From assembly GCA_025774805.1 (NCBI GenBank), contig JALGZR010000008.1:22604-86603 (forward strand): a DNA stretch of 64,000 bases. The letters run 5' to 3'. How positions within the stretch are numbered: the first letter of the stretch is position 1; each line of letters begins with the position of its first letter. The translations under genes and the position numbers were made by a program. Shown piece after piece: positions 21,600 through 36,516 of this stretch. The stretch comes from a bacterium. Its GTDB lineage: Bacteria; ARS69. Under the pieces are notes generated by a model that saw only the letters and a list, made by a program, of their open reading frames with translations, was not told where the DNA came from and did not search any database.

Positions 21600-22049
21600 A
21601 TGCCTTCGTTTCCGCTGAGTCTCCCGTTGGCCCTCGCGCTGGGGAGCTCGATCGCCGCCCAGTTGACCAAGTTCCTGGTGACCCTCGGACGGGATGGAAC
21701 GGTCAACTTCAAGCGGTTGGTCGAACTCGGCGGAATGCCGAGCGCTCACTCGGCGTCGGTGGCGGCGCTCTCCACCGGCGTCGGGCTGGAACAGGGGTTC
21801 CAGTCGCCGCTCTTCGGCGTCACGGTGTTCTACAGCCTGATGACGATGTACGACGCCGCCGGAATCCGGCGTTCCGCCGGAAGGCAGGCCGAGGTGCTGA
21901 ACCGGATCGTGGATGATCTGCAGGTTTCGGGGAAGGTCCGGGAGGAACGCCTCCTCGAGCTCCTCGGTCACACTCCCTTCGAGGTGCTCGCGGGGGCGGC
22001 CCTGGGCATCGCGTTCGCTCTGGCGGGCACGCAACTTCTCGAACTCTAG
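21600..22049 (+). CDS. Divergent PAP2 family (YuiD/DUF212-like) membrane protein
   Basis: GGMPSAHSASVAALSTGVGLEQGF, YDAAGIRRSAGRQAEVLN motifs. Confidence 0.88.
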   Translation: MPSFPLSLPLALALGSSIAAQLTKFLVTLGRDGTVNFKRLVELGGMPSAHSASVAALSTGVGLEQGFQSPLFGVTVFYSLMTMYDAAGIRRSAGRQAEVLNRIVDDLQVSGKVREERLLELLGHTPFEVLAGAALGIAFALAGTQLLEL

Positions 22050-22229
22050 CCCGGACTCGTCATGAAGGATCTACTACGATCGCAGAGACGCTCCACCGGA
22101 CGGGCGTCCTCGCAGTCCGTATTCTGCGACGTATCATCGAGATACGCCTCGGGTCCGGGCCCCTGCGGGCGCCCGACCGGTGGGCGTCTCCACGATCTCG
22201 CAACGATCTTCGTGACGGGTCCGGGCTAG
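22046..22229. repeat. Long imperfect palindrome (about 184 bp) with CTAGCCCGGA...TCCGGGCTAG ends; element D of the window's repeat family
   Basis: Left end CTAGCCCGGACTCGTCATGAAGGATC versus reverse complement of right end CTAGCCCGGACCCGTCACGAAGATC. Internal arms also pair (GAGACGC.CACCGG.CGGGCG), with central CGTATC-ATCGA-GATACG. Confidence 0.85.
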
Positions 22230-22245
22230 CCGGACGGAGACCTCC

Positions 22246-24156
22246 ATGGAACGAGTGCTCGATCGCATCGAAAGCCCTGCCGACCTGAAGACGCTCGAAC
22301 CGTCCGAGCTGAACGCGCTCTGCGCCGAGATTCGCGAGCAGATCATCGAGACGGTCACCCAAACCGGAGGACACCTCGGCGCCAGCCTCGGCACGGTCGA
22401 GCTGACCGTGGCCGTTCACCGCGTCTTCGACAGTCCCCGCGATCGAATCGTCTGGGACGTCGGACACCAGGCCTACGGCCACAAGCTGTTGACCGGTCGC
22501 CGCGACCGGTTCTCCACGATTCGACAGTTCGGGGGACTGTGCGGTTTTCCGGTCCGGACCGAGAGCGAGCACGATGCCTTCGGAGCGGGACACGCGGGGA
22601 CGTCGATCTCCGCCGGGCTCGGGATGGCGACCGCCTTGGAGGCGCGCGGCGAGAAGGCACGGGTCGTCTGCATCATCGGAGACGGAGGGCTGACGTGCGG
22701 CATGGCCCTCGAGGCCCTGAATCAGGCTGGCCATCTCCGAAAGAACCTGGTGGTCATCCTCAACGACAACGAGTGGTCCATCTCGAAGAACGTCGGTGCG
22801 CTGTCCACCTACCTGACCCGTCTGACCTCCGCCCCGCTCTACCGCCGTCTCGAGCAGGACGTCTACGAGCTGCTCGGGAAGATCCCGAAGGCGGGAGGAA
22901 AGGCCCAGGAGATCGGTCACCGGATCAAGGAGAGCCTCAAGAACCTCGTCGTCCCCGGGGTGATGTTCGAGGAGCTCGGGTTCAAGTACTACGGACCGAT
23001 CGACGGGCACAACGTCGGCGAGGTCATCTCCACGCTCGAGCACCTCAAGGCCCTGCGCGGCCCCATTCTCCTGCACGCCGTCACGGAGAAGGGACGCGGC
23101 TATCCCTTCGCCCCGCAGTCGAAGACTCGATCGCACGCGTTGTCACCGCCGGTCCCCTCGGCGGATCGGTCGCGGAAGGACCCGCCTCCCGCCTATACCC
23201 GCGTGTTCGGAGAGGCGCTCGTCGAGCTCGCGGAGCGGGACCCGTCCATCGTGGCGATCACTGCGGCCATGCCCGACGGGACCGGAACCGTGCAGTTCGC
23301 CGAGCGGTTTCCCGAGCGGTTCTTCGACGTCGGCATCGCGGAGCAGCACGCGGTGACGTTCGCGGCCGGTCTCGCCTGCGAGGGGATCAAGCCGGTGTGC
23401 GCGATCTACTCGACGTTTCTCCAGCGCGCCTTCGATCAGGTGATCCACGACGTGGCGCTCCAGAAGCTGCCGGTGACGTTCGTGCTCGATCGGGGAGGGG
23501 TGGTCGGAGACGACGGTCCGACCCACCACGGCGTGTTCGACCTCGCCTATCTCCGGTTGATCCCCGGCCTCGTGGTGATGGCCCCGAAGGACGAAAACGA
23601 GCTCAGGAACATGCTCTTCACGCAGCTCCAGTATCGGGACGGGCCCACCGCGTTGCGGTATCCGCGGGGGTCGGGCCCCGGCGTCGAGCAGGAGAAGGAG
23701 TTCCGACTCCTTCCGATCGGAAAGGCGGAGTGCCTCCGGGACGGGAGCGACGTGGCCTTGGTCGCCCTCGGCTCCCTGGTCCACACGGCGGCGTCCGCCG
23801 CGAACCGCCTCGCGGAGGAGGGAATCTCCGCCGCGGTGATCAACGCGAGGTTCGTGAAGCCGCTGGACGAGGAGATGATTCTCGAGCTGGCGGCTCAGGT
23901 CGGTCGCATCGTGACCCTCGAGGAGGGAAATCGACCCGGAGGCTTCGGCAGCGCCGTCGCGGAGCTGCTCCAGGATCACGAAGCGGGGGAGACCCGGTTG
24001 GCGTCCCTCGCCCTTCCCGATGCGTTCATCGAGCACGGCCGACCGGAGGTTCTGAGACGGAACGCCGGTCTCGACGTCGAGTCCGTCGTCGCGCGCGTGC
24101 TCGAGCTTTTCCGGACGCCGAGCCGGGTGGAGGAGCCCGCGGGGCGCAGAGTCTGA
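22246..24156 (+). CDS. dxs: 1-deoxy-D-xylulose-5-phosphate synthase
   Basis: TQTGGHLGASLGTVELTVAVHRVFDSPRDRIVWDVGHQAYGHKLLTGRR; full-length DXS features. Confidence 0.97.
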   Translation: MERVLDRIESPADLKTLEPSELNALCAEIREQIIETVTQTGGHLGASLGTVELTVAVHRVFDSPRDRIVWDVGHQAYGHKLLTGRRDRFSTIRQFGGLCGFPVRTESEHDAFGAGHAGTSISAGLGMATALEARGEKARVVCIIGDGGLTCGMALEALNQAGHLRKNLVVILNDNEWSISKNVGALSTYLTRLTSAPLYRRLEQDVYELLGKIPKAGGKAQEIGHRIKESLKNLVVPGVMFEELGFKYYGPIDGHNVGEVISTLEHLKALRGPILLHAVTEKGRGYPFAPQSKTRSHALSPPVPSADRSRKDPPPAYTRVFGEALVELAERDPSIVAITAAMPDGTGTVQFAERFPERFFDVGIAEQHAVTFAAGLACEGIKPVCAIYSTFLQRAFDQVIHDVALQKLPVTFVLDRGGVVGDDGPTHHGVFDLAYLRLIPGLVVMAPKDENELRNMLFTQLQYRDGPTALRYPRGSGPGVEQEKEFRLLPIGKAECLRDGSDVALVALGSLVHTAASAANRLAEEGISAAVINARFVKPLDEEMILELAAQVGRIVTLEEGNRPGGFGSAVAELLQDHEAGETRLASLALPDAFIEHGRPEVLRRNAGLDVESVVARVLELFRTPSRVEEPAGRRV

Positions 24157-34628: not shown

Positions 34629-36328
34629 TCGCCACTCGCCTCCGGCGTCTCCTCGCGACCGCGACTCCCGCGCTTCTCTTCCCGCTCCTCCTCTCCGTCG
34701 CGGTCGGAGCGCGCGCCACGGAGCTCCCCGAGGAGAGTGCGCGCGAGGAGATCTCCTTCGACGCGCTCGAGCACTACTCGCTGGGCTCGCTCTTCGAGGC
34801 GCGGGATCGACTGCGGGAGGCGATCCACGAGTATCGTCTCGCACTTCAGCAGACCCCGGACAACGCGAACGTCTACGGCAGTCTCGCTCGCGTCCACCTT
34901 CGACTGCAGGAGGCGGAGGAGGCCGAGGGCGCGGCCCGCCGAGCGCTCGAGCTGGACCCCTCGAACCGTGAGGCCCTCGACGTCATGGTCGATCTCCACC
35001 TCGCGCGACGGGATCTGCCGGCCGCCGTGGAGACGCTCCGGCAAGTGGTGGCCTCCGATTCGACCGATCTCCAGACGCGCATCCGGCTCGCGGAGATCCT
35101 CGAGCGCACGGGGGATCTGGAGGGGGCGCTCGGGGAGCTTCAGGAGGCCTCGCGGCTGAGCCCCGGGCTGGCTCACGTTCACTATCGAATCGGGTCGCTC
35201 TACTCCCAGCTCGGCCGGCTCGAGGAGGCGCTCGACGAGTTCGACACGGTGGTGCGGATCGATCCCTCGTTCACCGAGGCGCTCATCAACGCCGCGACCG
35301 TGCGCGAGATGGAGATGAACCTGGAAGGCGCGGCCGATCTGTACAAGCGCGTGCTCGAGCTCGAGCCGGAGAATCTCGCGGTCCACCGGCGTCTGCTGCG
35401 GGTCCAGCTCCTGCTCGACGACACCGAGAGAGCGGGGGAGACCGCCCGCTGGATCCTCGAGCGGAACCCGGCCGACGCGGACGTGCGCGAGCAGTACGGC
35501 CTCCTCCTGCTCCGTGCGGGCGACGTCGAGGGGGCGATCCAGGAGCTGGAGCGGGTCCGATCGGAGTCGGAGAAGCGAATGAGCGTGCGCCGCCACCTGG
35601 GCCGGCTCTACTGGGACGAGGAGGAGCACGAGAGGGCCCGCGAAGCGTACCGCGAGGCCCTCGAGATCGACCCCAGATTCACGGAGGGGTGGGTGTCGCT
35701 GGGCTACCTCCACGCGCAGCTCGACGAGCCCGCGGAGGCGGCCGCGGCCTTCGAGAGGGCGGTGGAGCAGACGCCCGGCCGGCCCGTGCTCCACTTCCTT
35801 CTGGGGGTCTGCCGGAACGATCTCGGCGAGTACGAGAGCGCCCGGGAGGCCTTTGAAGAATCACTCGAACTCCGTCCGGGAAACGCCCAGGCGCACTATG
35901 GATTGGGCGTTGCCCTCGAACGCCTCGGCCGGACCGAGGACGCCGCGGCCGCTCTCCGCAAGGTCCTGGAGATCGAGCCGGAGAACGGGGAGGCACTGAA
36001 CTACCTGGGCTACATGTTCGCCGAAAGAGGGGTGCATTTGAACGAGGCGGTCGAGCTGCTGGAGCGGGCGGTCGCTCTCGAGCCGGAGAACGGCTACTAC
36101 CTCGACAGCCTCGGTTGGGCCCACTTCCAGCGGGGGGAGTTCGAGAAGGCCCTGGGATACCTGGAGCGGGCGACGCGGCGGTCGGAGGGGGACGCCGTGA
36201 TCCTCGAGCACTTCGGCGACGTGCTCGAGCGCCTGGGCCGGTCCGAAGAGGCCCGGGAGGCGTGGAAAAGGGCTCTCGAGGCTTCTCCGGACGCGGAGGG
36301 GGCCCGGCGGAAGCTCGGAAACCCTTAG
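34625..36328 (+). CDS. Exported tetratricopeptide repeat protein
   Basis: Signal peptide; many TPR units (e.g. AIHEYRLALQQTPDNANVYGSLARVHLRLQEAEEAEGAARRALELDPSN). Confidence 0.88.
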   Translation: MIATRLRRLLATATPALLFPLLLSVAVGARATELPEESAREEISFDALEHYSLGSLFEARDRLREAIHEYRLALQQTPDNANVYGSLARVHLRLQEAEEAEGAARRALELDPSNREALDVMVDLHLARRDLPAAVETLRQVVASDSTDLQTRIRLAEILERTGDLEGALGELQEASRLSPGLAHVHYRIGSLYSQLGRLEEALDEFDTVVRIDPSFTEALINAATVREMEMNLEGAADLYKRVLELEPENLAVHRRLLRVQLLLDDTERAGETARWILERNPADADVREQYGLLLLRAGDVEGAIQELERVRSESEKRMSVRRHLGRLYWDEEEHERAREAYREALEIDPRFTEGWVSLGYLHAQLDEPAEAAAAFERAVEQTPGRPVLHFLLGVCRNDLGEYESAREAFEESLELRPGNAQAHYGLGVALERLGRTEDAAAALRKVLEIEPENGEALNYLGYMFAERGVHLNEAVELLERAVALEPENGYYLDSLGWAHFQRGEFEKALGYLERATRRSEGDAVILEHFGDVLERLGRSEEAREAWKRALEASPDAEGARRKLGNP

Positions 36329-36405
36329 CCTGCATTTCTCACCGGTCTCTGCTGCGCCGGCGGCTCGCCGCGTCCTCGTGACGAACCCGGCGAGGAATGC
36401 AGGCT
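36327..36405. repeat. Element A of the dispersed repeat family, 79-nt imperfect hairpin
   Basis: AGCCTGCATTTCTCACCGG...CCGGCGAGGAATGCAGGCT: 19-nt arms with two mismatched/wobble positions; contains CCTCGTGACGAA. Confidence 0.8.
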
Positions 36406-36516
36406 CCGAGGGGGCGGGGGGGGGGCGGAGGGGTTAGAGTGAGTTCTGCGGACGCCGGACGGCCCTCCGGGCGGAACCTCACCCCGGGAGGGGGGTATGC
36501 AGCGCAGGAGGTGGAC

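Follow-up and report, generated by a model that had tools for sequence, protein, structure and literature searches.

The palindrome between a yuiD-like gene and dxs in the window (the whole 64,000-nucleotide stretch of DNA analysed here) is a copy of a small mobile element that carries no genes and is present about 40 times in the genome of an uncultured bacterium, and we consider it very probable that this element is a non-autonomous, nearly wholly palindromic MITE of ~180 bp with a preference for CTAG as its target. The copy discussed here occupies positions 22046–22229 (no strand assigned), as delimited by an alignment of 24 near-full-length copies and by BLASTN against the organism's own genome, and it is full-length, measuring 184 bp with both terminal CTAG or, on the assumption of target duplication, 180 bp and one duplicated CTAG. 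On the forward strand it begins with the left terminal CTAG (22046–22049), presumably one copy of the target, which holds the stop codon TAG (22047–22049) of the yuiD-like gene (21600–22049, +). The natural stop of this gene, which has homologues in three sister genera, is the insertion point. The left terminal inverted-repeat arm CCCGGACTCGTCATGAAGGATCTACT (22050–22075, +), the inner left stem (22093–22114, +; its partner lies roughly at 22167–22191), the apical hairpin CGTATCATCGAGATACG (22130–22146, +), the right terminal inverted-repeat arm ending in CTTCGTGACGGGTCCGGG (22200–22225, +) and the right terminal CTAG (22226–22229, +), presumably the second target copy, follow in this order. 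The dxs gene (22246–24156, +), 72–73% identical in the three sister genera, has both its ATG and its GGAG ribosome-binding motif outside the element.

A near-complete palindrome of 184 bp between these genes had been reported in the preliminary description, and its coordinates and sequences are as claimed: RNAfold assigned 22030–22250 a free energy of −126.4 kcal/mol, whereas shuffled sequences averaged −86.1 (sd 4.8; z = −8.4) and none of 200 folded as well. The outer arms, described there as almost perfectly inverted, were recovered independently at 22046–22067 and 22208–22229 with 91% complementarity, and the pairing envisaged for the interior segments and the centre is seen in the inner stem and the apical hairpin. 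Taken without flanks, the 184 bp fold end to end (−120.7 kcal/mol) into the single long hairpin that had been proposed, which ends 16 bp before the dxs start codon, counted from the right CTAG to the ATG at 22246. The palindrome had also been treated as the spacer between the two genes, which is accurate for most of its length and fails at the left end, where the yuiD-like stop sits inside the terminal CTAG. The G+C content of the element is 65%, that of the host genome 69%.

A 193-bp query found dozens of further matches by BLASTN in the organism's own genome (5.1 Mb in 284 contigs, a 96% complete but fragmented draft from a metagenome), and most full-length copies proved 86–98% identical to the consensus when this served as the query; the figure of about 40 takes the pieces of an N-gapped copy once. 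The 24 near-full-length copies have sharp ends, typically CTAG-CCCGGA…TCCGGG-CTAG, and their flanks are unrelated past the terminal CTAG. As in other MITEs, we have a short sequence dispersed over many places (184 bp, ~40 sites) that carries no transposase gene and is bounded by terminal inverted repeats with sharp ends. Many other copies have internal deletions and keep both ends, while others stop at the apex. In subfamily B the left arms are 93–100% identical (mean 97%), therefore its spread appears to be recent. No copies were found by BLASTN in four genomes of the same family or in 36 others. An open reading frame running through the element was also spotted by eye; its frame is shifted in one subfamily.

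An N gap interrupts the hairpin apex of one copy, and two copies are found at contig ends, so some of the truncations may stem from the assembly. Breaks or N gaps at the apex were noted in L034, L031, L044 and the copies truncated near element position 113, which suggests that sequencing or assembly failed at the palindrome. These irregularities would also be expected if the whole palindrome were a chimeric inverted duplication created during assembly, but the chance of this is close to negligible, as the dozens of independent copies each have their own unique flanks and their arms have diverged, and matching gene junctions in relatives are free of the element.

The comparison with relatives shows what the site looks like when it is empty. 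Three genomes from other genera of the family also have yuiD next to dxs but lack the palindrome, and the distance from the last aligned yuiD codon to dxs is 44, 30 and 49 bp (in the third genus the alignment ends a few codons short of the yuiD stop), compared with 199 bp here. Therefore, the window carries an insertion of ~180 bp. The yuiD-like homologues are 75–85% identical and stop at the corresponding residue in two of the sister genera, the third protein being a few residues longer. The pattern extends to six further loci, namely those whose C-termini formed one concatenated query (seven more elements of the same geometry were left out): the abutting gene has a homologue in relatives that ends 0–8 residues from the corresponding position, and five of the six loci have a conserved downstream match that lies ~170–215 bp closer in the relatives. 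The sixth adjoins a peptide chain release factor gene (identified by sequence), and its downstream region is not conserved in relatives. The gene beside the element thus ends at about its natural C-terminus, right at the edge of the element, in all seven comparisons with relatives. Filled and unfilled sites are distinguished here between genera rather than between strains. The preliminary description had raised a MITE-like insertion as one option, and this is where the evidence leads, as the element is multicopy, has sharp ends and covarying arms, and is absent from the same junction in three sister genera. It had also named what would speak against insertion, that is, an identical spacer in sister genomes and arms free of covariation; we find element-free yuiD-dxs junctions and arms that covary.

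The position of yuiD relative to the element is not an isolated case. With gene calls from our own approximate codon model seeded with dxs, not a standard gene finder, 20 element ends coincide with the stop of a neighbouring gene inside the terminal 4-mer, or 17 once weakly scored genes are dropped; four genes end 20–24 nt from the start of the terminal 4-mer, within the arm, and one runs deeper. Hence 17 of the 22 well-scored genes that enter an element end stop in its terminal 4-mer (p = 3e-5 against an expectation of 1/3). This model was the third tried. The first two mistook antisense frames for genes, the second also calling yuiD outward, and were set aside; the stop-codon pattern was already visible with the first, and all counts reported are from the dxs-seeded one. 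The target itself is scarce: base composition predicts ~183 CTAG in the window and 10 are present, a deficit of about 18-fold. Among 39 ordinary CTAG sites, nine are stop codons, 18 are intergenic and 12 lie in genes. The share of stop codons at elements (17/39) is not significantly above that at ordinary non-coding CTAG sites (9/27; p = 0.28). It follows that a CTAG target combined with selection against gene disruption suffices, and dedicated homing to stop codons is not needed.

Was the target duplicated on insertion? Cutting the element out in silico with one CTAG kept yields …GAACTC TAG CCGGACGGAGACCTCC ATG, a normal junction, while removal of both CTAG leaves yuiD without a stop and open in frame into dxs; a normal yuiD junction needs one CTAG, which argues for duplication. 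Which CTAG supplies the stop of the neighbouring gene varies, the left one at some copies and the right one at others, and this also fits a duplicated target. The terminal 4-mers, which were compared by hand as direct or inverted repeats, do not discriminate between the two: one copy has TTAA/TTAA, consistent with duplication, several have pairs with one mismatch such as TTAG/CTAG, and in a copy with CGAG/CTCG inverted rather than direct symmetry fits better, the non-palindromic targets giving no clean direct repeats. As CTAG is itself a palindrome and the ends other than CTAG are few and diverged, the 4-bp duplication is likely rather than proven.

It is conceivable instead that both CTAG belong to the element and that it is a REP/BIME-like or IS200/IS605-like hairpin, moved as single-stranded DNA by a Y1 (RAYT) enzyme with no duplication. 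The arms vary freely as long as they pair and, together with the CGAG/CTCG copy, this would be expected if structure and not sequence is recognised; a second short palindromic family is also abundant in the genome. We nevertheless regard such an origin as improbable: REP/BIME units measure 20–40 bp and come with a RAYT, while this element has 184 bp and the 96% complete genome has no Y1_Tnp; yuiD would have been stopless before the insertion, in frame into dxs, and the excess of 17/22 in the stop frame would be left unexplained.

The MITE reading calls for a transposase acting in trans. Four families were searched for in this fragmented draft, and Y1_Tnp (PF01797), DDE_Tnp_1 (PF01609), DDE_3 (PF13358) and rve (PF00665) had no match in the assembly. 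No long parent element with these ends (CTAGCCCGGAC) lies at the other exact GTCCGGGCTAG sites, which by reading of the surrounding sequence are isolated matches or 14-bp remnants. Metagenome bins often lack multicopy insertion sequences. Most bacterial repeat elements likewise had no known parent (PMC2229807).

The remnants just mentioned are exact 14-bp copies of CTAGTCCGGGCTAG or its reverse complement at five sites (L141:2001–2014, L143:1043–1056, L144:1998–2011 and 2360–2373, L145:1998–2011), with the stop codon of a gene in the CTAG at all five. From their sequence they look like near-precise excisions, which might arise if DNA were deleted between the TAG at one end and the TAG located within the opposite arm, a few bases in. 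Transposons with inverted repeats show a similar outcome when they excise near-precisely. Separately, the genome contains a second dispersed palindromic family of ~80 bp, AGCCTGCATTTCTCACCGG...GAATGCAGGCT, present in the window at 36326–36406 and at ~40 further matching places, and it often adjoins the ends or the 14-bp remnants of the first family.

The arms have changed in concert. In an alignment of 22 copies 97.1% of the cells pair, against 34–44% when partners are slid, and 11 pairs (29 cells), mostly in the outer arms, are altered on both sides, compared with a shuffle mean of 5.9 and a value never reached in 500 shuffles. This alignment also supplied the structure, the copies share ancestry, and repair templated by the hairpin could equally preserve the match between the arms. 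For these reasons the covariation is evidence for maintenance of the palindrome and not for selection on an RNA function. If the latter were the case, the element would be an RNA with a job at gene 3' ends (an mRNA stabiliser, RNase III site or terminator) and mobility would be secondary, as the strong, conserved and covarying fold and the stop codons directly preceding many copies might suggest. We give this view a very low probability, since the T-tract is absent, several copies precede genes or sit well away from 3' ends, many have internal deletions, none were found in sister genera, and the insignificant excess of stop codons is explained by target choice.

Nor is the element a dxs regulatory element by origin or a dxs-specific switch. 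Termination or attenuation of transcription into dxs, as the preliminary description had it, finds no support, because a search of 21950–22350 returned 0 Rho-independent terminators (GC stem plus T run) and no sigma-70-like promoter match, and other copies lie beside unrelated genes. The yuiD-dxs spacer also has no match in Rfam. Placed between yuiD and dxs, a stem of 180 nt could still be cut by RNase III or alter mRNA decay; if transcribed, the hairpin would most likely act on the yuiD-dxs mRNA in one of these ways.

As far as our searches reach, with five genomes of this phylum among those covered, the element represents a new family within a well-known class of bacterial repeats, and it fits the definition of a MITE, with the duplication deduced and no parent identified. 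MITEPsy1 of Pseudomonas syringae (100 nt, 18-nt TIRs related to ISPsy2) targets CTAG or YTAA and duplicates 4 bp on insertion (PMC3189936). Our element is likewise short, non-autonomous and bounded by terminal inverted repeats at a CTAG target, but it has 184 bp, is palindromic throughout, has the TIR CCCGGAC and no parent IS was found. ERIC, Correia (NEMIS) and RUP are multicopy, 100–200 bp long, have TA termini and form a long hairpin in transcripts; ERIC at gene 3' ends affects mRNA decay, and RNase III cutting or decay effects have been reported for Correia and ERIC (PMC2229807, PMC10969869). Size, copy number and hairpin architecture are shared with these, which are described as mostly A+T-rich (PMC2229807), in contrast to the 65% G+C, CTAG ends and lack of an Rfam match at the site here. 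IS630 is cited as targeting the TA in 5'-CTAG-3' (Tenzen and Ohtsubo 1991, cited in PMC2170065), and going by that citation its CTAG preference would give the same ends if only TA were duplicated, but DDE_3 was not found in this genome. QMITE2 of Coxiella burnetii is concentrated just downstream of ORFs and has a very stable stem (PMC5896051, PMC10969869), both as here; it belongs to another organism and is not known to insert exactly at a stop codon or CTAG.

We propose that the MITE spreads as DNA, moved by a transposase in trans, into CTAG and less often YTAR/TTAA, duplicating the target. In a 69% G+C genome the rare CTAG would be tolerated chiefly where it forms a TAG stop codon or falls between genes. 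Since the duplicated CTAG would restore the stop codon, insertion at a gene end would leave the protein intact, and the present copy probably entered the stop codon of yuiD within the yuiD-dxs pair. A more elaborate variant, in which the palindrome recognises its own ends by base pairing, homes to translation stops, preserves the stop by duplication and leaves the 14-bp scar on excision, possibly with an unrecognised transposase of this uncultured phylum as mobiliser, seems unlikely to us. On the MITE reading, the case shows how selfish DNA can multiply without harm in a compact and gene-dense genome, by way of a rare site, CTAG, that is often a TAG stop and is duplicated. Covariation can come from the copies of a palindromic transposon, and a strong, conserved and covarying hairpin beside a gene like dxs is therefore not necessarily a riboregulator.
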